Assembly (NCBI RefSeq): GCF_032854445.1
Contig: NC_088301.1
Location: forward strand, 25,714,402-25,778,401
Length of the DNA: 64,000 bases
DNA from: Liolophura sinensis
Taxonomy: Eukaryota > Mollusca > Polyplacophora > Chitonida > Chitonidae
Direction: 5' to 3'
How positions within the stretch are numbered: the first letter of the stretch is position 1; each line of letters opens with the position of its first letter. The position numbers and the translations under genes are program-made. Below, in pieces: positions 1-51,624 of this stretch. The notes under the pieces are model-generated. The model was not told where the DNA came from, did no database searches, and saw only the letters and a program-made list of their open reading frames with translations.

Positions 1-3000
1 AGTATATTTATTCTCCCCTGGGTTTTTGGTATTGGCGGATTTCTTCAACTCCTCGTCGGCTGCGTGTCATTCTCGCGGGGAAAAACTTTCGAAAGTTGCG
101 CCTTCATTGTATTCAGTTGTCTTTGGTTAATCTGGGGGACAGCCAGGGGATTAGATTTCTACGAAGGAGAACAGTGTGTAGCTGTGTCAGTTGGGTGTAT
201 CACCTTCCTTGTAGTCGGCATTTTACTTCTCTTGCTCTCAGCGGTTGTCAGTAAGGCCTGGTTCGTCACGACTCTCCTCTTTAACATGGTCTGTATCGCT
301 TTCCTCGTGGACAGCCTTCAGGTGGAAGCCACCCACTCTTATGAAGTGGTTGTCATGATCATGTTTGCTGTGGTTTCGTTCTACTGTTTCACGGCATGCG
401 CACTGAGATCTGTTACTGGTCGGCCATTACTTCCGCTGGGCTCACCAATCATCAACGTGAGCTATCTCCACGCTCATGGTGGCACCGCAATCTGGGCGAA
501 CGCCAAGAGGGACACGGGCGTATCAAAAATTGCAGGTAAGCTGTTAGAGACAAAAAATGCTTTGTCTAGAGAAAGCAAAAATAGTTTAATAACATACTGA
601 ATTGTGTGTTAATGAGAATGAGAATCTCTGACACTCAGATTGAATGCGAACTGGCAGTCTAGATCCAGTTGTACGAATGTCCTGCTTCGACGTCAGGGTT
701 AAGGGAAAGTGATCAGTTCATCGCCAATTTGTAAATTCAAATATAACAGCAAACTGAAGTGCAAACATCTTTATTTTCAAGTGTCACCTAGTCGTCTAGA
801 ACCACATACATGCTGTCATATAAATAAAACTAGAAAAGCAATGTCATCAAGTTATAAATCTTATTTATTTATTTATTTGATTGGTGTTTTACGCCATACT
901 CAAGAATATTTCACTTATACGACGACGGCCAGCATTATGGTGGGTGGAAACCGGGCACAGCCCTGATGAAACCCAAGACCATCCGCAGGTTGCCGGAAAA
1001 CCTACCCAGATACGGTCGGAGAGACTAAATCTTAGATTGGCATATAATAGAAAAATGGCTGTGGGCTAGTCGTCTATAAAACAACTGAAGAGAAATAAAC
1101 GTAGAGCTGAAATGATGGACTTAACCACTTCGCGGCAGATTCTTATCCATCTTTCAATATCCTATCAATTTAATCTTCAATATAGCATTATCAAATGTTT
1201 CAAATGTGGGACTGCGGGGTACCTTGTTAACAGTGCTCTTCCTTGTTTCGTACAGACATCCTAAACCGCGGAGGGATATGTGGGATACCCTCAGACGTTG
1301 TCTACATCCTCGTGGCTGCCTGTAAACACCCAGAGGCTGTTGAGGTAAAACCAGACTTTAAAATTTAGGTTGGGTGGGGTTAGCCCTTGTATGTTTTCGG
1401 TTACCACAAACTGTCTGCGGTTCATGTCCAGACTTGTTTGGGGAAATCCATGTTAATTTGGAGTTTTAGACAAAGGTGTAAAAACACCATTAACTTGGTT
1501 GATTTTGTGGCATAATCTCAAAAGCACTCCAGATGACATACCTCTCAAAATGAGAAATAAACCCTAGTATCCAGTGATGTTTCCAGAGGAGAATCACTGA
1601 AAAGTAAACAGGAAAGATGTATTTTTCTTTGAAATTTTACAATCAGAATTGGTTCAGTGACGATATGTAATTACTCAGAATTTTGACTTTAAATACACTT
1701 GGCCAGAATGCCCTCTAAAAATGAAAACGGATACGACACTATAATTCCACCGAACGTTTCAAACATCCTATCAGTGTGCACTGTTTCTTTACAGAGAGCG
1801 TATAACACAAAGAAACAAGCGGAAGAGCGTCCTATGTCCATGTGGATCTCGAACCTGAAACAGATTGAGGCTGGTAGGGAGTTGTTCGGAGAGCTGACCT
1901 GGGCATTCATGAAGGAGGTCTGGCCATCCACCATTAGTCTGGTCGTCAACAAAGGTAAAAGATCAATTAGTAACTAACTGTAGTGGAAGAAATGTGTGAT
2001 TGTCCTTCAGTTTTCTTCACAACCGTTCGATCGACTTCATACTTGCAGGACACACGTGTGACAAACGCATACAGATTAAGCAATCATGATATCACAAATC
2101 TTTCGCTGATACACGCACGCTTTAAATTTTAGCTAAACAATATTTTCTTGTTACTCCTTCGCCTCGCTGGTCGGGCCACATAGACTCCTTAATGAGTTAA
2201 CTGCCTACATAGCCGAAGACTATAAACTGCATGATGTCGCGTGTTTTAATACAGTTCTTTCTGGTTGGCGTGCGTCAGTCTATACGCCATGGATTTTAGT
2301 TTTGCCATACCTACTGCTAAATCCATTTCTTCTGCCCTTTAACCAGTGCTATGCTTTAAAGCTGCACTCCTGATTAGCTCTTCTAAGAATAATTTAGCTG
2401 CAGAATAATGTTCATAATTTTGACGTTGTTCCCAGGTGACATTTGTGATTTGATGATGACACTGTATGTCACATAACTGTTTTTGTTGATGTTGTAACAG
2501 GACCGTGGTTGCAGACGTTAGGATTGCGTGACGCAGAGAAATACATTGGCCGGCCTGACAGCATTGCTGTGCGCATGCCTGATAACACCATCACGACGCA
2601 CCTGATTGACAGGACGGGGCCCGTGGCCGTAAGTTCTGCGAATCCCACAGGAGAGGCTGATACTACTCACCACCTGCAGGTGCTCGCTAAACTCGGCCCC
2701 AAAAATGTAAGACATTTTTTTGTAGTCACAGTATCCATTTTGCCTTTGTTACGTTTCGTTGTAGCAAGTGAGAATCTGTGTGTTAAAGATTCCAAATTAG
2801 TATTTAATACTTTGCATCCAAAATCTCTTTTATCTAGGGCGTGTGATACAGTTTACCGTCAGAATATTATGCCTTCTTTCAGCTTGGAGAAGCGAAACGT
2901 TTTTATTAATGCAAAACCTTGGTCGTGATGGCGAAAACTCTAGGACTATAAATCAAAAAATATTCTCAGAGATAAAAATTTTCAGGTAGGATTTATTTTC

Positions 3001-3756
3001 TAGAAACTGAACGCTGTTAATGAAGTAAGCAGTTCACTTCATAAATAAATGTTGTTGATTATTCAGTGTGACGGTATCCTGTGTGACGGACCTTCTCACG
3101 AAAACGCCGCCTCCACTGTGGTGGACTGCAGGAAGATTGAAGAGGGAAAGCTGGGATTTTTCCGCGTTGGAATCGTACCGAAATCCAGAGTGCAAGAGAT
3201 CTTTGATTCAGTCCAAGAGCGGCTCCGCGAGAAAAAGACCAAAGGTCGCTCTGGCTCTATGAGTAGTAGCAACACCAGCAGTGCGGATAGCGGATTGGAC
3301 GACCAGTCACAAGGGACCAGCGCCCGGGGCAGCCAAAAAGGCAGTCGCAAGAGCAGCAGGAAACTCAGCTTGAGAGGCAGTCGAAGAGGAAGTCAGAAAG
3401 GCAAAGTGACCTCTGACATAGAAGGAACCGTCAACCCGGCATTCGTGGATGATGATGACAAGATCATAGTCCATGACAGCAACAAACCCGAACCAGTATC
3501 CACAACGCCAGTGTCCGCCAAGAGCGGTTTATTGTCCAGTAAAGATCATTCATACAATACATTTTCGGTAAATAGTTTAGATGTCGATCCGAGAAGAATC
3601 CGAAGACGAGATTCCACATCCGGGGAATCGGATGTTATTGATCGAGAATCGCATTGGGAAGAGCCCGCAATAATCGGTGATGAGCGCTTACCGGAAGTAC
3701 AAGTCCAAGTTCACAGAACGGTTGTCAACCAAGAGGATGCGACCTCTGCCCTATAA
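1..3756 (+). CDS. GPR1/FUN34/YaaH-like membrane domain fused to a YrdC/Sua5-like domain (5' partial)
   Basis: Exons 1-535, 1256-1344, 1795-1954, 2501-2706 and 3067-3756 join in phase (559 visible residues) with GT-AG borders. The frame is open from base 1, so the start lies upstream. Residues 1-150 hold about five hydrophobic helices and the GPR1/FUN34/YaaH pattern GGFLQLLVG..F.RG.TF..AF, ending in RPLLPLG as that transporter family does; YaaH (SatP) of this family moves acetate and succinate. Residues 179-370 read as a YrdC/Sua5 domain: GGICGIPSDVVY, ERPMSMWIS, WPSTISLVV, DSIAVRMP, SSANPTG and STVVD. YrdC enzymes make threonylcarbamoyl-AMP for tRNA t6A. Residues 390-559 are a Ser/Arg/Lys-rich, probably disordered tail. 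The domain calls are from motifs; the function of the fusion is unknown. Motif departures (DTVYGL to DVVYIL, KxR altered) suggest the YrdC part may not be a standard t6A enzyme. Introns hold a SINE at 861-1023. Confidence 0.8.
861..1023 (-). repeat. SINE-A fragment (tRNA-derived SINE, minus orientation)
   Basis: Starts with the reverse-complemented (AAAT)n tail, then GATTGGTGTTTTACGCC and the conserved body through the GACCATCCGCAGGTTGC segment. The tRNA-like head is missing. It lies in intron 1 of the fusion gene. SINE-A is defined here by comparison of the more than 20 copies in the window. Confidence 0.85.
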
Positions 3757-22541: not shown

Positions 22542-25500
22542 TTAGTGAGCCAAAAGCGCGCCAATGTCAGTACCCCTTGAGTTAGAATCCAAAGACCCCA
22601 CAGATCGTATCATTTCCGCGGGTGCCCCGGCCGGCAGGTCGCGGGTGTTCCTGATAAACTTTTCTTGGATGTGCTTGTCCGACAGGGGTCTCCTCCAGTG
22701 GCCGTACGGCGTGTCACACCTGCCCGTCACCACGCTTCCGTCCTGTAGCTGGACTTCGACAACCACGTACATATCCTCAAAACTGGCAACGTTGTCCTCA
22801 GGCGTTATAACAGCTGTCTTCTCCAAAAGGCCTTGAAGGGACGGTCTGTGGAGACTGTCGTGGTAGAAGGATTCCGGATGGATCTCTCCGTCTAAGAGGG
22901 CTGTGCAGACCATGAACTGAAAGGAGTGACGGGCCTCGTGTTCCGTCGTCGGCAGCGGACGATTGATGTAGCGAGACTTCGGGGCGGAAATGACGATGTT
23001 GGATATAATTCTCGGATCGAGCTGAAAACTGGCACCGGTGATGGTCCGTCTGACTTCCATGGCGGCGTCTACGGCCCAGTGCATTCCGAGATGAGCCGGA
23101 AACCGTTTGATTGCGATGTCTTGGTCATGAAGAACAAACTGGTCCCTCTGGGAATGCGTCCTCATGAATTCCTCCGGATCGTAGTCATCATAGAACGCCC
23201 CGAACCCTGACTGCATGTCCAAGATGTCGTCGTTACCCTCGATGCCGTGTTCCGCCATCAAAGCAGCCTCCAAACCAAAACCTTGCAGACTTTCCACAGT
23301 GGAGAGGCTTTGTCTTGGTGCCAGCATTCGCCATCGGAGCTCCGGCAAAAGAGGCGGCTATAGCTAAGGCATGTCGACTTTTCTTTGGGCCGAAACCCAA
23401 GAGTTTGGAAGCCGCAGCCGCACTGCCCATCACTCCGACAACGGCGGGAGGATGGAACCTTCAAGAAACAAGAATACAAAGGTATTTATGTTTATTATTG
23501 TTACAAAAAATAAGTCTTTGTGTCCTTTCACAATTACATTCATAACGCAAAAAAACAGCTTATACTTACTACAGACAAAATCATTCAAGCTAGAAAGCAG
23601 CAATGCAGTGCAGGCTCATAGATGACTGCCAACTTTCGTCAAAAGAAATGGAGATCTTTCACAATGGACAGTGATGTTGCTCTGGTGATAGGAAGAGTTC
23701 TGTTTCACCAAACTTCGTGAATTAATTTGCTTGTAACGTTTTTTAAAGCTAATTTTAAATTTTCAACCATGATGGAAGTACCAGTTGCAAGACCAATTTC
23801 TAAAACAACGATCAACGAAAACCGCCATCGAACAAAGAAAGTAAGAAGTTACACGTCTTGTCAAATGAAGCCTTTATCAGTTGCTGATGACGCTGGAAAA
23901 CTAAAGGCATGTGTGCATCATACGAGTTACAATGAACAAAGCGTTGTGTAACCTTGCCATTAGTTTAATGGCCCTTGATATAAGACGACTTGAAATATGA
24001 AGTCTCCACGCAATGCTAATGATTACCTTCGAGGTATTTCCCGGGCTTGTCTGGAACACCTCATAAGGAGTCCCTGGACCTGAACGCCTACGTTATAAGC
24101 CAGGATAAGGTCTTCGCCGCTGGGTCTGTACTGTCCCGTCATCGTCTCTGCCAGGGCTAGGATGGTCGGCACCACAGGTCCGCTCGGGTGAGTCGCTGGG
24201 TGCCAAGTATCATCAAAATCCATCGAGTGAACACTGACCCCGTTGATGTAAGCGGCCATAGAGGGAGAGGTCCTGCGGCCACCGCTGCCCCAGATGATAC
24301 TGCCGATCTCTCCATGTCCTAATGCCGGGTCATCGCTAAGTAGTCCGGCGTCTAGTCCCCAGCGGATGATGGACTGAGTGATGTCGGTCTTAGAACCGAG
24401 GTACCCCACCCCGAGGGTGTCCAGAATCATCCTCTTACTTCTGTGCAGGGTCAGGTCTGACAGGTGAGACATGGAAGCGTTTGTGATTTGATCAGCAAAC
24501 CATGAAGTCGTGTTTCCTGCAGGTAGACTCTGAACCTCTGTTCACAAAGGAGAAGAAAATGTCATCTTTTTAGTACAATAGGGAATTTACGCCATTTATG
24601 AGTCTTGTTTAGACTGAAAAGTGAAAGCGGAGGAATTTAGAAATTTACCTCACTCACTGAGCTATCCGCCTATTCCCACAGTTTCGGGAGCGGTAGATCC
24701 AGGGTCAATCCTGGGTCGAGTCACACCTTACACTTTAAAAGAAGAAGTTGTAACTTCCTCGCTTGGGGTTCAGCATGAAGGGGATAGTGCAACGACAGGT
24801 TTACCCGTATCAGTATAATGGCTCGGGTGGGGCGACTTATTTACCTTCGGTAAGTCGTCTCAGTGAAGCAGCACTAAATAAAAGAGCGGTGGAAATCCGT
24901 CCTGCAACAAGGAGGTACATTACATACACCTAAGGATTCCTTCTTCGTCATATGACTGGAAAATTGTTGAGCACGACGTTAAACCACAAGGTCTCACCCA
25001 AAAGGATGCACTGTTAAGTTAGGCTAATGTCTGTTCCGTTTCACTGAATGTATATGCGAGCTACCCAAAGATAGACATATCTGTGTTGCGCAAAACTCCC
25101 ACTGTGCCACTGTGCCAAACTACACACTTGTGCACTTCCTACACATGCGCACTGCTGCTTGTATAACTTCTATAATCAAATAAACTATTTCCAAGTACAG
25201 GCTGGTCGAGACAGTGTTCAACAGTCCATCAAGCAGTAATTCACTTATGGTTATTTAGACTCACTCATGACGATAACTGACGCCATGGTTACAAGTAAAA
25301 TATTCAGTGTGTGTAATATAAGAAATATTGAGACATTCGTAAAATAGTGAAAAAATAAAGGTATTTATTTCAGTTATAACACGGTGGAAGGAAACTGAGC
25401 AGAACCCGGGGAAACCCTTGACCATCCGCAGTTTGCTGCAAAACTTTTCCAGCTAGAAAGTCATCATGAGCTGGGCTTGAACTCATAGCAACAGCATTGG

Positions 25501-31589: not shown

Positions 31590-34500
31590 ATGGAGACGAG
31601 AAATATTGCTCAGTATTTTGACACAAACGGATACATAGGGAGTCTGAACGTCCTTGACAAGGATGAGGTTGATGACCTCAAATCCAACTTCAAAGCCTTT
31701 GAGGACGACATTGGTAAGTAAAATGGATGTACAGGTTATCAAGGCTAAAGTATTCTTGACAGAAAGATGATGCCAATGATCTTGCCCACGTCTCATTCCA
31801 CTATCATTTTCAGCCATGCGTTAGATGAACCCACTCTTTCCAACGCACATTACGTCTTTAATTTCGCTTTGGCCAGCGTACAACTTTTAATCAAAATAGC
31901 TATATCCTGAATATCATTTAGTCCTTCATTCCCCAGTGATCACCGGCGAATTTTTCAGCCATAAATATGAGGTATGCCTCTATTTTTACTATGAACCGCT
32001 TATGTCTTTAATATCCATAAAATTATTTAGTCGTTCATTGCGTTGTAGAGCAACCTTCTCGTGTTTTCACTTTGTTCTTGCCACGGTATGGCTGAAATAT
32101 TGCCGATGTGGCGTTAAACCATAATCACTCATTCATTCATTAATTCATTCATTGTAGAGCATCGCTCTATCATTCTGCTTTTGCCGGTATTGCCTATTCC
32201 TTGACCGCATCTATATCTTTTAGTCGTTTGATACACTATCTTTGTAGTGCTTCACTTCGCTAGAGCGCCGGATTATCCTTTAACCGTAGTGTGCATGTAA
32301 ATGTTGAATGTCACTATGAACATACTAGCCTGATATTTATTTTCTTCACTTTGCTAGAGCCACTGTCAATCTTTCGGCCATAGGATTTGCTTGCGTAATA
32401 TAATAGTTCTACGGTTAACCTTTTAAATGACCTTCACCCGCATCACTCTCACTGTCGCATAGAACGGAGAAACAAAAGGAACCACCTATGCCCTATAATC
32501 ATCTCTAGTTTATTTATAGCTTTACTTATATGGGACATTTACTTACTATTACTCTTTTAGGGAAAGCCGATGCGCAATATTCCCTTCACAATGTGCACGT
32601 GGTTCATCCATGGGTGTTGCGATTGGCCAGTCACCCCAGAGTCCTTGGACCAATCAAACAGATTCTTGGGGAGAATCTGATTCTCCTAGACTCGAGATTC
32701 ATCTGTAAATATCCAGATACGGAGGTGCCCGGTAAAGATGGCACTGAGGCGTATGTGGCCTGGCATCAGGACGTCAGGTAAGACCAATCACTATGTAAAT
32801 CTTCTGATAAAAGTAAACTGCATATAATCTCTTCAGCAATGTAAGGGTTCGAACCTAAATGTTGATGAGCAGCTAAAAAGACTAATCAGTCGAAACACGA
32901 TCGGGATCTGATATACAAACACATCAATTTAAAATCTCTTAATTTTGATTTATTAAAATTTTACAATGGATGGAGGAGACCGAAATGTTAGATTTAAACC
33001 ACTGTCTTTTGCAAGTTACTCACGAACTTTTCCACGGACATTTGACGTGCAGAGATTCAAACCGTGTAAAAGGCTCTAGTCACACATATCCACGAAACAG
33101 TGAACATGCGGAAAATCTACAAATTCCCTGCTCAAGGTCTGATTTGAACCTTACGATCAGATTAGTATCGTGCTATTAACAAAACATGCTGTCTGAACAG
33201 GATGTTACATGTCCGCGGTAACAATGATGTAAGTTATTCCCTTTGTTCACTTGCTATTTGAAGGAAATATCATTAAACGCAGGAATTAAACAATTAACCG
33301 GATAATACGCACCAATTTGAAACAATACCGCAATTCTTAAGTGTTTATATCTTCTGGTTTTATAAGACGTTTAAAATTTGCCGGATTCAGTACTGTGAAT
33401 GCAAAATATAGCGGGAGTATCCTTCGAGTTGTTGTAACTTTTACCTTATCACAGTCAAAAGATACAATGTTTAAAATAGTGGTTAACAGTCAACAAACTA
33501 CATGTAACTTCATATGTGCACGACATTTACTGAGATTACTCGAGAGTTGGAACTTGAGTTTGTTCTGTTCAATACAGTATACCTCATAAAAATACAAAAA
33601 TATACAAAAATTGTCTGACTTTCAGAAATTATATGTCTGGCAACACTCACATTACAAATTTTTGCACTTTTAAACACAATATAGAATAGCCGATTCTAAA
33701 TTGGTTAACTTAAACAGGGTTTTTTTGTAACAATTTGTGTTGACGTTGCTGTATACAGGTATTGGGGTGTGACTGGTGACGTTGTGTCAGTATGGCTGGC
33801 TGTAGATGACGCCGATGAAGACAATGGGTGTATGTTCGTCATTCCAGGTATAAGCCTATAACGTCATCCATAGACTTTTTTTCATTTGATTTATTTTATT
33901 GGTTTTTTACGCAGCACTCAAGAATATATCACTAATATGGCGGCGGCTGTGAAGACTTTAAATTGTCCCTGAAATACACCCACAAGCAAGCAGTCAGAAT
34001 GAAATTTTTTTTTACACATGTATACATTCCATAAACATAAATCAGGTACACTTTGTCTGTCTCTAAATTCAAAGATACATACAAGTCGATATGACGTCAT
34101 ATGTGATCTATAAATCAAGAATGGTATATATGGTCCAAGCCTATAAAAGCACATACATCACATTTAAAAAAACAGAAATAAAGATAGCTTAATTTGTAGG
34201 CACGGGAACTTCAAGCTTGATCAGCTGATTTGATTGTATGATGAACTGATCTCATCATACAAAATTTAAACATCTAAGAAGCTAAATATAAGACGGCATT
34301 ACCCCTGTCACAAAAGCGAAAAAATGCGAACACCCATACCTCTCTAGCTTAATTATGGGGGATAATTTCAAGATGAACCAGCATAGCTTTTCCATTGTGA
34401 ATTTTTTTTACCAAAATTGTCTTTTGTTCTTGTAGGAACTCACAAAAGTGGCATTTTAGAGCATCACCAAGCTTCAAAGGGAGGAAACCTACTAACGTCC

Positions 34501-34803
34501 AACCAAGAAATTCCCGAGGATCTTTACAACGCTGACGAGGCCGTTCCTTGCCCTCTGAAGGCCGGCCAGATGTCGCTTCATCACGGCCATCTTGTGCACG
34601 GAAGCGGACCCAACCGTTCCGAGCGACGCAGATGCGGCTACGTCATCCGTTACGTGGCAACCTCCGCCTATCCAATCAAGGACGAGAATCGGCCGAGGAA
34701 ATTCGAAGCAACCGTCCTGGTGTCTGGAGAAGATAACTTCAACAATTTCAAAGACAATGCTCCTCAATGGTTCAACAGAAAGAACACTGACGTCATCGCG
34801 TAG
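31590..34803 (+). CDS. PhyH-family Fe(II)/2-oxoglutarate dioxygenase
   Basis: Exons 31590-31713, 32561-32777, 33759-33847 and 34436-34803 have GT-AG borders and phases 1, 2, 1, giving exactly 265 residues plus stop. The family hydroxylates diverse substrates using Fe(II) and 2-oxoglutarate. Visible Fe ligands are H110 and D112 in WHQDVRYWG and H198 in HLVHGSGPN; R209 in ERRRCGY sits 11 residues after H198, the same spacing as H264/R275 in human PHYH, and would bind 2-oxoglutarate. The Asp of HxD is present, so a hydroxylase rather than a PhyH-type halogenase (which has Ala or Gly there) is expected. There is no PTS2 or signal peptide at the N-terminus, so a cytosolic protein closer to PHYHD1 or bacterial PhyH enzymes is more likely than peroxisomal PHYH. 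AATAAA at 34851-34856 is a good polyadenylation signal 48 bp after the stop. The substrate is unknown. Confidence 0.9.
32053..32151 (+). mobile_element. 5'-truncated SINE (D) with 10-bp target-site duplication in PhyH intron 1
   Basis: Contains GCCACGGTATGGCTGAAATA, TTGCCGATGTGGCGTTAAAC and an (ATTC)n end. Identical TTGTAGAGCA direct repeats flank it at 32043-32052 and 32152-32161. Confidence 0.85.
32960..33180 (-). repeat. Repeat family B copy in PhyH intron 2
   Basis: AACCACTGTCTTTTGCAAG, TTACTCACGAACTTTTCCACG and GACGTGCAGAGATTCAAACCG match the order seen at 13100-13170. Confidence 0.6.
33880..33955 (-). repeat. SINE-A tail fragment in PhyH intron 3
   Basis: GATTTATTTTATTGGTTTTT, ACGCAGCACTCAAGAATATA, TCACTAATATGGCGGCGGC; the rest is absent. 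Confidence 0.7.
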
Positions 34804-37310: not shown

Positions 37311-38425
37311 TTGGCAGATGGAGAGGCTCTGCTGAGCTGTTTTGCAGTGACAATATCTCACCGGACACATATGATGCACATGTAACAGCAAACATGCCCT
37401 CACCAAAGTTGTTTGGGTTTTTGCTTTGGCGTAAGTTAACACTAATTCTTTGTAAAACACGCCATTAGCGATTTTCGGTGAAATCCAACGGTTCATGGAA
37501 TCCAATCCTGGATAAATTATAATACACTCGAAAAAAGATTTGATTCTATGTTCATAGTTTATGTGTAGCATTGTCATCTGGTAATAATGATCTAACGTCA
37601 CATGCAAATTATGTTAATCTGCATTGAAAATATTCTTCAATATAAAAATAATGAAATGATCATTTTCAAGTTTAGTATGAAAGTTGAACTATCGTAGTTC
37701 AAAGAAGTTAAAAAGAATTCATTTAAGTTCGATAATACTGGAAGCTCGCCAGTGTATGTAGAAAATGCGCTAAAATATGAATTTTAGAATTTTTAAACAC
37801 GATTTATTCAGGATGTACGCACACTTTAAGCTATTTGACTTATACTGTTTGGAATCCTTCCATTTTTAAAAAAAGTTTTCATTTGTATTGTAGTGTGTTA
37901 TGGGTCGGCTATTTCAAATCTGCTTTTGTCCTTTTACACTAAAAATAACAGCATATACCCAGTAAAAACATTTTCTTGGACATTTTCTGAAACTGTGTTA
38001 TATTCACCTCCAGCAGATCAGGAAAAAATCAATTATTGTTAAGTATAATCGCAGGGAAAATAACTATATACTGCATTGAGATACTGTCTTTACTTCAGAC
38101 AAACCTAGCCAAAAACATTTGTCTTTCATTGATTTCACACTGCTCCTCTGTAATCTTTCTTTCTTTGATTTTCAGAGAGGAAAAATGGGATTTCCCAGAG
38201 AAGACAATTTAAGAAAATCCAAAAAATTGACCAAGAAAACCTTTTTTCACTGTGTACAATAAGGTATTTCTCAACAGCTCACAATCGGCTTGTTTTGATA
38301 AGCAGATCTATAATGAAATATAATGAATCCCCCCCCACCCACCCTCCTCCAAATAAAGCATAATTTAATGAAGCGACACTGAGTCAGAAATTCAAAGGAA
38401 ATTAAATGAATAATTCAGCTTAAGA
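37311..38425. other. AT-rich intergenic DNA, nothing recognised
   Basis: The minus frame 37607-37263 has no domain. A CCCCCCCACCCACCC run lies near 38330. Confidence 0.3.
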
Positions 38426-38427
38426 AG

Positions 38428-38998
38428 ACGATTGTCTTTATGTGTCATGACCTGGACTCGTCTTCCTAAAATAGGATATAAGGAGTAAGGCTTCACCAAG
38501 TTGTTAAAACGATTGTCTTTATGTGTCAACACCTGGACTCGTCTTCCTAAAATAGGATTTAGGGAGTAAGAGCTCACCAAGTTGTTAAAACGATTGTCTT
38601 TATGTGTCAAGACCTGGACTCGTCCTCCTAAAATAGGATTTAGGGAGTAAGAGCTCACCAAGTTGTTAAAACGATTGTCTTTATGTGTCAACACCTGGAC
38701 TCGTCTTCCTAAAATAGGATTTAGGGAGTAAGAGCTCACCAAGTTGTTAAAACGATTGTCTTTATGTGTTAAGAGCTGGACTCGTCTTCCTAAAATAGGA
38801 TTTAGGGAGTAAGGCTTCACCAAGTTGTTAAAACGATTGTCTTTATGTGTCAAGACCTGGACTCGTCCTCCTAAAATAGGATTTAGGGAGTAAGAGCTCA
38901 CCAAGTTATTAAAACGATTGTCTTTATGTGTCAAGACCTGGACTCGTCCTCCTAAAATAGGATTCAGGGAGTAAGAGCTCACCAAGTTGTTAAGACGT
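38428..38998 (-). repeat. 81-bp tandem repeat (about 7 copies) with an open minus-strand frame
   Basis: The unit is exactly 81 bp (starts at 38428, 38509, 38590 and so on) and the copies are about 90% or more alike. Because 81 is a multiple of three, the minus strand stays open for 229 codons (39081-38392). Each copy encodes 27 residues: NNLVSSYSLNPILG(G/R)R, then VQVLTHKDNRF. Copy differences are SS/KP, G/R and V/L. The open frame extends upstream to about 39150 with no ATG in frame, and a TATATAG lies at 39176-39182 (minus). Whether it is translated is unknown; it could be a plain minisatellite. Confidence 0.85.
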
Positions 38999-39489
38999 TT
39001 GTCTTTGAATCGCCAGGACACAAGGGGTGCGGATTTAATCAGGGCCTTAGACAGGGGGAATATATATTCCTCGGCACTCAATGCTTGTGGAACCTTGGGG
39101 ACAATAAACGTTGGACAATACTCGTGTAGCCATTTGCACAGTTTGATGTTTGTTGAACACCGGGTTGTCTTCCGTCTATATAGTGCTCATGCGCAATAAA
39201 CAATGTGCGATTGCATTGGGACGACACTGATATCTAAGGCCACTGACAGCATGTCTGGGACGAACAAAATAGGGGCTCCTACAGTTTCGCCATTATAGTG
39301 TCGTTACAGAAATGGCCCTATAATCTTCACCAAGTACTGTCGCCGACATTGGGACACTTTCTGGTTGCCCAATGTTGAACCTGAACTGACACACCTGTAT
39401 CTGAAACGGAGAAATGCCGGCCATTTTAACGCCACTGTGCAAAGTAGGCAAAGTTTTAAGAAAACAACAGGTAGATAATATGACCGTCT

Positions 39490-45425: not shown

Positions 45426-45819
45426 CTCTTTGACTTTTAAACAATGCATCATGTACTATTTATGTGACATATATAATAGACGTTCATGATCTGTCGTGCT
45501 TGCAACTAGTAATTCAGTGCAGAATTAATTAAATCACCTGTATATAGTTACATTATAATTTGATGACCGTAATAAATATTTTAGACTCATTATATTGCCA
45601 TAGTTACTGAGATAGCCAGATCGATATTGCCTCTTAATAATACATTTCATGCCCTTTGATATGTCGTCAATGTCACTAGTTTCCTAGTTAAAACAATATC
45701 CGTGTATAGACACAGTTCCCCAGGCAAATGTTTTTGTTGTCCCGGGGACGATAATGTTAGCAAATATTGAGAAACTGGTGCAGAGTACAATATCGCGTTT
45801 GCACTTGATGGTTTTTGCA

Positions 45820-46495
45820 TGCACGGTGTGTCACTGGAATTCTCTGGGCAGCAGGCACAGTCTGTCACCGGTGCGGGCTGCATGCACGGTGTGTCACCGG
45901 TACTGGCTGCATGCACGGTGTATCACCGGCACCGGCTGCATGCACCGTGTGTCACCGGTACGGGCTGCTTGCACGTTGTGCCACCGGTACGGGCTGTATG
46001 CACGGTGTGTCACCTGTACGGGCTACATGCACAGTGCTGGTACGGGCTGCATGCACGGTGTGTCACTGGTACGGGCTGCATGCACGGTGTGTCACTGGTA
46101 CGGGCTGCATACACGGTGTGTCACCAGTACGGGCTGCATGCACAGTGTGTCGCTGGTACTGGCGGCATGCACGGTGTGTCATTGGGACGGGCTGCATGCA
46201 CAGTGTGTCGCCGGTACGGGCTGCATGCACGGTATGTCATCGGTATGGGCTGCATGAACGGTGTGTCACCGGTACAGGCTGCATGCACCGTATGTTACCG
46301 GTACCGGCTGCATGGACGGTGTTTCACCGGAACGGGCTGAATGCACTGTGTATCACCGGAACGGGTTGCATGCACGATGTTTCACCGGTACCGGCTGCAT
46401 GCACGATGTTTCACCGGTACCGGCTGCATGTACTGTGTGTCACCGGTACCGGCTGAATGCACAGTGTGTCACCGGTACCGGCTACATGCACGATA
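45820..46495. repeat. 29-bp minisatellite, about 23 copies
   Basis: The unit is CATGCACGGTGTGTCACCGG followed by TACGGGCTG. Each unit holds a GGTG-TGT-CACC inverted repeat and an ACCGGT palindrome. Because 29 is not a multiple of three and the unit has no stops, all three plus frames stay open; those frames are not genes. Confidence 0.95.
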
Positions 46496-49409: not shown

Positions 49410-50768
49410 AACAAAATACACAATCTAATCCATCCAATATGTTTTAGTTAGTTATATACTGACTTAAATATTAGCCTCCGGCCTCGGAGCTGTTGCTTGT
49501 GTAAAGTCTACCAACAAGAGAAATGTCCAAGCTGACCTTAAAATATTTATTGATTGAATGAGCTTGCGGCAACGTTGGACCTATTTTTAGCGTTAACTCC
49601 AGACATCAATAATCAAAATGTCGACCCAAGATGAAGTAAACACATACAACTGTAAGTGTAAGTGTCGACAATTTACATCATCTGTCAACCTTAAAGAGAC
49701 GTTTCATGTCGATATCATCATGACACGTATATTTCCTGGCGACCATAATTACCAATTCTCGAAGGATTAGATATAATTCTCCAAGAATTTGCGAAAAAAC
49801 AAAAACTTTTTCTCCAAGACTCTATACAAACAATAAACCAATGCCTTTTTGTCAGGTATTTGACAACATTCTAGGTTTAATGTTGTAGCAAAAGTGGCAA
49901 TAACCACCTTATTAGGTTAAGCCAGCGAAGGCTCATATATATTTTTTGAACGTTTCAAACACCGCGTGTAACGTTATGTTTAGGTAGCCCTTTTCAAAAC
50001 AAAAAATGTTGCGCACCAATTTTATATGAGTGTATTAGCCTTTTAATTAGCAGTCAATCATGTTTGTTATCTTCCATGCAGAAACAAGCGATGCCTAGAG
50101 CATGGATGCCAAGCGCTGTCCGTTGTAGTGCAGACACTCTATAGCTTGTCAGGTGAAAATCCCCGTGGGAGTCATGTGCCTTAGAGTAGATGCTCAAGTG
50201 GCAGACGATAGAGAATGTCACGTTTCACCATTCCGCCTCTTGTAGTCCAAATACCAATCTCCATTAACACTGCTTTTCCACGAATCCCTTGCACAAGTCA
50301 AATACTTTCAGTTAGACAAACAGCAAGTTCCAAGGCATCATTTTAACGCTGCTTCCACTGCTGCTATTCAAGCCTAATTTTGTGTCAAACTGTACGGTTC
50401 TCTGGCGTAAAGTGTTTGCATTCACCATAAATGTGGGACCGAAAAATCAAATATACTGTATTTGAACAAAAAACTAGTTTTAGACGGAAGTAAAGCACAT
50501 AAAATATTACTTTTGGAACTTTTCCAGTAGGATATCATGTCTGACAAAGTACTAACAATTCTCTAAAACTCTCACAATCAGGCAAAATAAGTAACTGGGT
50601 CATGGACAAAATTTTAGGTCGAACACAGTATTTAGCAATGTAAGGCAGATATACATTTTATTTATTGTTTGTTTGTTTAGTACTGCTTTATTTGTATAAG
50701 TTTTATTTATCTCTTAAATTATTTATATTATTTATCTATTTATTTGTCTATGTTCATTTACATTTCAG
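49410..50768. other. Intergenic or intronic DNA upstream of the neurensin-like exon
   Basis: No coding exon seen. It ends in a pyrimidine-rich stretch and the acceptor TTTACATTTCAG at 50768. Confidence 0.35.
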
Positions 50769-50829
50769 AAATTTCCCATCAGCTCCTTCGCTCACGCTCC
50801 GAGTCACGTGGCACGGCTGGATTCAAACC

Positions 50830-51624
50830 ATGGCGGAACTGCCAGTGACAGAAGAACGGGAATTTCTTCCGCAAACGGGCCACAGTCGGAAATCGTCTGT
50901 CGCGTCCGTGGGTGCTGACGAGTCCAGGTCGAATTCCAGGAGAAGCAGTAAACGTCTGAGTCGACAGGCCTCGATGGAGAGGCATTCCTTGGACGAGCAG
51001 GAATCGCGTCGCACCAGGAAGTACGACAAGCGACGTAGTTGTCCGGACTATTTCGGCGTGAAATCCTACCTTCACAATTTCTATGATACCGCCTTCTTCA
51101 AGGACCCGTCTATATACGAGGAAGAAGACGACTATCGGTACCTTCTGAATCCGGCACGGAGGCGACGCCGGTGTCGGCCCGTCTGGTGGAAGGTGTCCAC
51201 CTGGATCGGTGTCAACCTCATGATCTTCGGGGTGATCGGGATCCTTGTGGGCTACCTCGTACCCAGAAAACCCATCATCATAGAGACTGATTCTTCCAAC
51301 CAAATTTTGCTGGTGGACAAGCAGGCGAATCCGCACAACACCATGCTGGATATGTGCAAAGTAATCGGACTGGTGCTGTTCTGTCTCGGTGGAACGACCT
51401 TGGCGCTCGCTCTGCTCTTTCCTAGCTTTCTGCATCAATATTGCAATGAGGAACGCTACGACGACGCGATTCGTGTCCGTTACGGAGAGGACGCCAAACC
51501 TCCGCCTTTAAGTCCTATAGAAATGACCATTCCGGCCTCTTCGAAGGTCAGCAGTGTCCAGCCCGAGAGGAACGGCGCGGAATCTTTACTAACCAAAGAC
51601 GGAATGGTTAATGTTAAAGACTAG
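50830..51624 (+). CDS. Neurensin-like two-pass membrane protein
   Basis: 264 residues from an ATG in a good context (AACCATGG). Upstream codons in the same frame (50769-50829) follow an acceptor at 50768 and are taken as 5'UTR. The core matches vertebrate neurensins (NRSN1/2): YFGVKSYLHNFYD at 74-86, an acidic EEEDDYRYL, VWWKVSTW, a first helix at about 124-145, the LDMCKVIGLVLFCLGGTT second helix at about 173-200 and LHQYCNEER. Neurensins are vesicle membrane proteins of neurons linked to neurite growth. Compared with the vertebrate proteins (about 200 residues), this one has an extra N-terminal 70 residues rich in RRSS, RLSRQAS and RKSS, which look like basophilic-kinase sites, so both tails are probably cytosolic. 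A 219-codon frame on the other strand is a shadow. No clear AATAAA was found within 500 bp. Confidence 0.88.
   Translation: MAELPVTEEREFLPQTGHSRKSSVASVGADESRSNSRRSSKRLSRQASMERHSLDEQESRRTRKYDKRRSCPDYFGVKSYLHNFYDTAFFKDPSIYEEEDDYRYLLNPARRRRRCRPVWWKVSTWIGVNLMIFGVIGILVGYLVPRKPIIIETDSSNQILLVDKQANPHNTMLDMCKVIGLVLFCLGGTTLALALLFPSFLHQYCNEERYDDAIRVRYGEDAKPPPLSPIEMTIPASSKVSSVQPERNGAESLLTKDGMVNVKD

Follow-up and report, generated by a model that had tools for sequence, protein, structure and literature searches.

A gene of the chiton Liolophura sinensis was found to join a membrane part of three tandem AceTr-like repeats to a YrdC domain in which one of the arginines expected at the active site is replaced by glutamine. 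The gene, here called A, runs into the beginning of a 64,000-nucleotide stretch of contig NC_088301.1 (the window, C7:25714402-25778401, where C7 stands for the contig that holds it and C1 for another scaffold). By its domain content, A is a genuine if divergent representative of the animal family "three AceTr/ATO repeats plus YrdC". The fusion itself is real but has a precedent, so that the chiton case is not the first. What is new here, as far as gene models can tell, is a head-to-head sister gene beside A, called B, of equal architecture and with an intact set of active-site contacts. We tentatively propose that the YrdC domain of A binds a ligand and thereby regulates the AceTr-derived membrane unit to which it is attached.

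The YrdC domain had been recognised by the original prediction, and this assignment was borne out. PF01300 matched residues 180-356 of the 559-residue protein encoded in the window (E 8e-27; 94.3 bits, with the cut-off at 25.1) and also matched B (E 4.4e-33, 114.7 bits), and the closest solved Sua5/TsaC structures matched the domain of A with E 4e-11 to 3e-10. In Pyrococcus abyssi Sua5 (Pa-Sua5), ATP and threonine are contacted by K56xR58, S143xN145, T33, S181 and R195, and every one of these residues is required in yeast Sua5, according to the available part of PMC10321239. When A and B were aligned to the Pa-Sua5 structure 6f89, five of the seven contacts were kept in A (K662, S755, N757, S794 and R811), T33 being replaced by S639 and R58 by Q664, whereas all seven were kept in B (T657, K680, R682, S773, N775, S811 and R828). 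The KxR/SxN tetrad is broken in A (KKQ, SAN) and intact in B (KGR, SAN). The residue preceding SxN in A is Ser, as in TsaC-type proteins, and not the Pro of the Sua5 type. Both proteins fell below the NCBIfam TIGR00057 equivalog cut-off of 123.2 bits (A 88.4, B 109.1), and both carry an insertion, GxWLxxxGLxDAxxYIG (GPWLQTLGLRDAEKYIG in A), seen in none of the 11 other domains of the tree described next.

Two more PF01300 matches, on C1, appear to be parts of a single YRDC-like gene whose motifs are PTDT, KRR and SAN; its domain was joined by hand from open frames with splice sites unchecked. Since the genome has this separate gene and the KxR arginine is missing from A, threonylcarbamoyl-AMP for tRNA is unlikely to come from A, and A is probably not the cell's enzyme for N6-threonylcarbamoyladenosine (t6A). 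A YrdC tree of 13 rows (bacterial, archaeal, YRDC-like, A and B, including 6 of the 25 plasmid relatives listed) separated A and B from the other 11 rows with 100/100 support. The branch lengths were 1.26 for A, 0.33 for B and a long 3.38 for the YRDC-like domain. As 6 of the 10 inner forks were open and the deeper branching unresolved, the tree says little beyond placing A and B as sisters. A recent bacterial origin of the YrdC part was also considered, and is unsupported by this split, by a GTDB scan and by plasmid relatives: in the scan, which uses near-exact 8-residue peptides and is insensitive, one of 88 pattern-matching stretches encoded a relative (Methanobrevibacter, 35% identity), and plasmid-borne TsaC/Sua5 matches reached at most 36.5% identity among the 25 of 64 records listed. 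For a viral source, none of the 35 pattern matches in viral_contigs encoded a relative by the same insensitive near-exact peptide method.

The membrane parts of A and B each consist of three tandem six-helix repeats related to SatP, placed before YrdC, and were cut into A1-A3 and B1-B3 for comparison. Aligned against each other, 11 of the 15 repeat pairs gave z values of 4.1-21.4 and the remaining four, every one involving A1, 0.4-1.8. These values are relative to composition shuffles, in which the hydrophobic pattern is lost. The original prediction had described the helices as GPR1/FUN34/YaaH-type and had counted a missing PF01184 match as evidence against itself. PF01184 did align to the membrane part, over profile positions 52-188 of 207, but stayed under its gathering cut-off of 25 bits: scores were 18.6 for the window membrane part alone, 15.2 for the window protein, 14.2 and 11.4 for the whole membrane parts of A and B, and 15.7 for B repeat 1 alone, with no match to B repeats 2 and 3, each alone. 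A weak PF01184 score can also occur in other animal fusions, according to PMC13316224 (available in part). NCBIfam AceTr_1 gave 18.7 bits for B against a cut-off of 50 and nothing for A at E up to 0.01, and other families (e.g. DUF7057) matched weakly, below their own cut-offs. A PDB search with the third repeat returned no match at E up to 10.

Because PF01184 remained under its cut-off, the AceTr family link rests on profile-profile comparison. The six-repeat profile matched five SatP proteins with an hhalign probability of 98.2% over 180 columns. Reversing the repeats or SatP brought this to 0.8 and 0.9%, and the highest value in all reversed runs was 1.0%. Against Escherichia coli SatP alone the probability was 94.9%, compared with at most 1.7% for all 22 other E. 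coli membrane proteins, picked by annotation out of three stretches. Among subsets, A3+B3 gave 95.4, A2+B2 95.5, A1+B1 39.1, B1+B2 96.6 and B1+B2+B3 96.3%. From these profiles, the AceTr link of the repeats in A and B is genuine but distant, the first repeat showing it least clearly. The family assignment of the helices thus survives, although those in the window are just part of the third of three repeats.

The gene model of A agrees with the original prediction in that five exons join in phase: positions 1-535, 1256-1344, 1795-1954, 2501-2706 and 3067-3756 form a single open frame of 559 codons, with all four introns GT-AG, GC of 0.51 in exons and 0.37 in introns, and 22 and 33 stops in the remaining two frames. 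Contrary to what had been supposed, the protein does not start inside the window. With the neighbouring genome stretch added, A has six exons and 1007 residues, canonical splice sites in all five introns and its ATG at C7:25710394, 4,008 bases before window base 1. The first window codons encode residues 449 on, and helix 1 of the third repeat is encoded upstream of them. Exon 2 has an alternative acceptor, which adds six residues; it was rejected for want of a pyrimidine tract, and the finding is unaffected by it. The parts of A are as follows:

C7:25710394-25710583, exon 1, upstream of the window.
C7:25713248-25714936, exon 2, starting 1,154 bases before window base 1.
Window 1..535, plus strand, remaining 3' part of exon 2, coding for helices 2-6 of the third AceTr-like repeat, the linker and the first YrdC residues.
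Window 1256..1344, plus strand, exon 3: start of the YrdC core, with Ser639 (codon 1291-1293) at the position of Pa-Sua5 T33.
Window 1795..1954, plus strand, exon 4: YrdC, with K662-K-Q664 at the KxR site (Lys codon 1810-1812, Gln codon 1816-1818).
Window 2501..2706, plus strand, exon 5: YrdC, the insertion shared with B and the intact SxN, S755-A-N757 (codons 2635-2643).
Window 3067..3237, plus strand, 5' part of exon 6: final YrdC strands, with S794 (ASTVV) and R811 (FFRVG) retained.
Window 3238..3753, plus strand, 3' part of exon 6: a 172-residue tail ending in TSAL, followed by the stop codon at 3754-3756.

The tail contains 18.6% Ser and 8.7% Arg, in line with its earlier description as Ser/Arg-rich, and in its TSAL end it may match the class I PDZ-ligand motif. 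A dispersed repeat (core CAAGAATATTTCACTTATACGACG) is present at 15 sites in the window at up to 3 mismatches, against 0 in 100 shuffles; it looks like a short interspersed element, and one copy lies at 901-924, inside the first window intron of A.

Of the PF01300 matches found in the genome, the one with the highest score is on the minus strand, 21.5 kb upstream of the window. It belongs to gene B, which has eight exons between C7:25708736 and 25689410 and encodes 866 residues with the architecture of A. B was modelled from splice sites and similarity; the end of its exon 3 has three equivalent donors, of which the first was used. The two genes stand head to head, their ATGs separated by 1,657 bases that could hold a shared promoter. 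An alignment of A with B covers 840 columns at 27% identity overall (E 1e-84); repeats one to three have 28.5, 19.9 and 24.7%, whereas YrdC reaches 47.2%. Intron positions mostly differ, two pairs being close together. Given this low identity and the mostly different introns, the A/B duplication looks old, and since both copies carry the fusion, the fusion predates it. A separate observation concerns the 3' end of exon 3 of B, which is present in four copies at 66-bp spacing (22 codons) with the frame open throughout (minus strand, C7 about 25694483-25694710; L006:82-309). The first three of the four copies carry a splice donor (ATG/GTAAGG), and isoforms of B differing in 22-residue steps within the third repeat are possible.

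We now return to the role of A. In the arrangement that we tentatively favour, the YrdC domain of A would no longer make threonylcarbamoyl-AMP for tRNA; it would serve as a cytosolic module binding a nucleotide, bicarbonate or an amino acid, and would report to or gate the AceTr-derived membrane unit, in a transceptor-like manner. No other part is as well conserved between A and B as YrdC, so in A it has probably been kept for binding rather than lost. The original prediction had offered two guesses, a membrane-anchored sensor and a carboxylate/bicarbonate-coupled enzyme; judged from the aligned residues, the loss of the KxR arginine seems to fit better with a sensor or regulatory role than with an active enzyme. 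B may be a catalytic partner of A, with the shared 5' region as a possible route to co-expression.

Several observations weigh against a binding and regulatory function. The change of Thr to Ser in A is conservative, and the change of Arg to Gln may just weaken or retune catalysis; 47% identity of its YrdC domain to the apparently intact one of B could equally signal an active enzyme. The NPAPLGL motif is gone from all three A repeats, which makes it uncertain whether its membrane part even transports or senses anything. The repeat structure itself is imperfectly mirrored by other measures: instead of the 18 segments expected, hydropathy gave 17 for A and 13 for B, and single repeats matched SatP unevenly (A1 0.3, A2 32, A3 90.9, B1 90.4, B2 76.2 and B3 39.2%). 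Finally, the head-to-head layout of A and B is no proof of co-regulation.

The first of these points leads to the strongest competing explanation, that A is still an enzyme with altered chemistry, forming a carbamoyl- or acyl-AMP, in which Gln in place of Arg retunes the substrate to another acid or amine. The identity with intact B, the five retained contacts and the intact SxN all favour it, as does the use of carbamoyl phosphate by the YrdC domains of TobZ and HypF (PMC9654439, available in part), where YrdC likewise sits in a multidomain protein and is used outside t6A. Those domains, however, are fused to Kae1-like domains and keep KxR...SxN, which A does not, and both the longer branch of A relative to B and the TIGR00057 scores of the two proteins speak against it. 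We regard such an enzyme as possible but doubtful.

If the membrane part were still a transporter, it could import a carboxylate that YrdC then activates to an adenylate, an idea suggested for the vertebrate proteins in the accessible portion of PMC13316224. The profile link to SatP agrees with this coupling, as do several motif residues. The Trp of transmembrane helix 3 (TM3) is retained in all six repeats and the Tyr of TM6 in five (Phe in A1) in the hhalign alignment, or in all six in a joint MAFFT alignment. B keeps EPxALG remnants of NPAPLGL in two of its three repeats (EPGALG, EPMALG) together with its intact YrdC tetrad. For FLY, the Phe and Tyr positions were compared, in SatP numbering. 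The Phe position is Asn in 6/6 repeats, against Phe in four of the five SatP proteins used. The Tyr of FLY has been assigned to the TM3 SY[F]GFW motif (PMC13316224), and at this position the six repeats have Tyr twice, Phe twice and Leu twice. In addition to the replaced Phe, this coupling has against it the broken KxR of A and the loss of NPAPLGL from its repeats, changes to which impair function in yeast Ato1, as cited in PMC13316224. We consider an importer coupled to an assimilating enzyme unlikely.

A more speculative extension of the regulatory reading is that two three-repeat subunits, A and B, pair to give a six-domain ring as in SatP, with B supplying the sole active adenylate-forming domain of the pair. 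Such a heterodimer, co-expressed from a shared promoter region, in which 3+3 repeats would rebuild the SatP ring and of the two YrdC domains that of B would be live and that of A dead, is distinctly unlikely.

A reading in which A has no special role and, as a paralogue, is on its way to losing its function is also rather improbable. Its longer branch, the motifs lost from both membrane and YrdC parts and the low identity of the membrane part would agree with drift, but the 1007-codon frame is complete, the five introns have canonical splice sites and YrdC is better conserved than the membrane part, which together indicate purifying selection on A. Least probable by far is that the fusion is a splicing misreading of membrane and YrdC halves on separate transcripts: although the gene model comes from sequence alone and the PF01300 match begins at residue 628, two residues past the exon 2/3 junction (626.3), the TIGR00057 match begins at residue 618, 8 residues ahead of it in exon 2, the A/B alignment crosses it with one 5-residue gap, in the linker, and B and the published vertebrate proteins (PMC13316224) share the domain order. 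By TIGR00057 and the alignment with B, exon 2 appears to hold the last helices, the linker and the first YrdC residues, and because it spans into YrdC, separate transcripts for the two halves are unlikely.

The closest known proteins are those of Ghasemi et al. (iScience, June 2026; PMC13316224), who describe an ATO-YrdC architecture in non-mammalian vertebrates and, in the part available, leave its function open; our literature search gave no second account of an AceTr-YrdC fusion beside it. Like the vertebrate ATO-Sua5/YciO/YrdC proteins (e.g. Oryzias melastigma A0A3B3D9A3), A and B carry a Sua5/YciO/YrdC domain at the C-terminus, behind three Gpr1/Fun34/YaaH units, and two such subunits have been proposed to rebuild the hexameric, six-domain ring of SatP in the vertebrate case. 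Vertebrate fusions are about 900 residues long, compared with 1007 for A and 866 for B. Compared by description only, the chiton pair differs in its mollusc host and its two head-to-head genes, and A in the lost KxR arginine and the 172-residue Ser/Arg-rich tail. With SatP/YaaH and yeast Ato1/Ady2 (PF01184; 5ZUG, 5YS3), A and B share the six-helix unit, a full-length profile match, the TM3 Trp and mostly the TM6 Tyr; they differ in having three units per chain, an added YrdC domain and, throughout the six repeats, Asn where FLY has its Phe, as well as in the loss of NPAPLGL in A. Their YrdC domains resemble TsaC/Sua5/YRDC (PF01300) in overall sequence, SxN, the Ser and Arg contacts and the TsaC-type residue before SxN, but differ in the broken KxR of A, the A/B insertion, an altered PGP(L/V)T stretch and the membrane tether, and in the tree A and B group together, away from the YRDC-like gene of this genome. 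CrbS, as described in the accessible text of PMC5715377, joins an SLC5 transporter-like domain to a histidine kinase; the likeness to A is that of a transporter-derived membrane part on a signalling module, and since transporter family and output domain are unrelated, it is an analogy only.

Other features of the window lie away from A. A gene of the MmgE/PrpD family is found on the minus strand at 22542-24541; its N- and C-terminal Pfam domains (E 4e-30 and 5e-38) fall in two different open frames. Animal members of this family include cis-aconitate decarboxylase-like proteins. The presence of a carboxylate enzyme gene about 19 kb from A is probably a coincidence. On the plus strand, the C-terminal piece of a phytanoyl-CoA dioxygenase (PhyH) gene lies at 34387-34803 (E 4e-10) and a Neurensin/TMEM74 family gene, in a single open frame, at 50644-51624 (E 9e-31). 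Two minisatellites were also found: one of 81 bp at 38428-39006 (7.1 copies, 95% match), with the minus-strand frame 38392-39186 open through the array, and one of 29 bp at 45816-46492 (23.3 copies), where three plus-strand frames of 189-215 codons are open across most of it.

The chiton pair, one copy intact (B) and one broken (A), together with the separate YRDC-like gene, offers a natural comparison that parts the tRNA question from the membrane question, and the A/B contrast points to the exact residues of interest. The fusion in a mollusc also bears on the suggestion, made in the available part of PMC13316224, of horizontal transfer into protostomes: the deep A/B split and mostly different introns seem easier to square with an old bilaterian gene. 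If the heterodimer of A and B were true, it would amount to an adenylate-forming complex bound to a membrane. Its pseudo-synthase would sense ATP, bicarbonate or an amino acid and would control an anion pathway, and the fold of the t6A enzyme would here be used without connection to tRNA.

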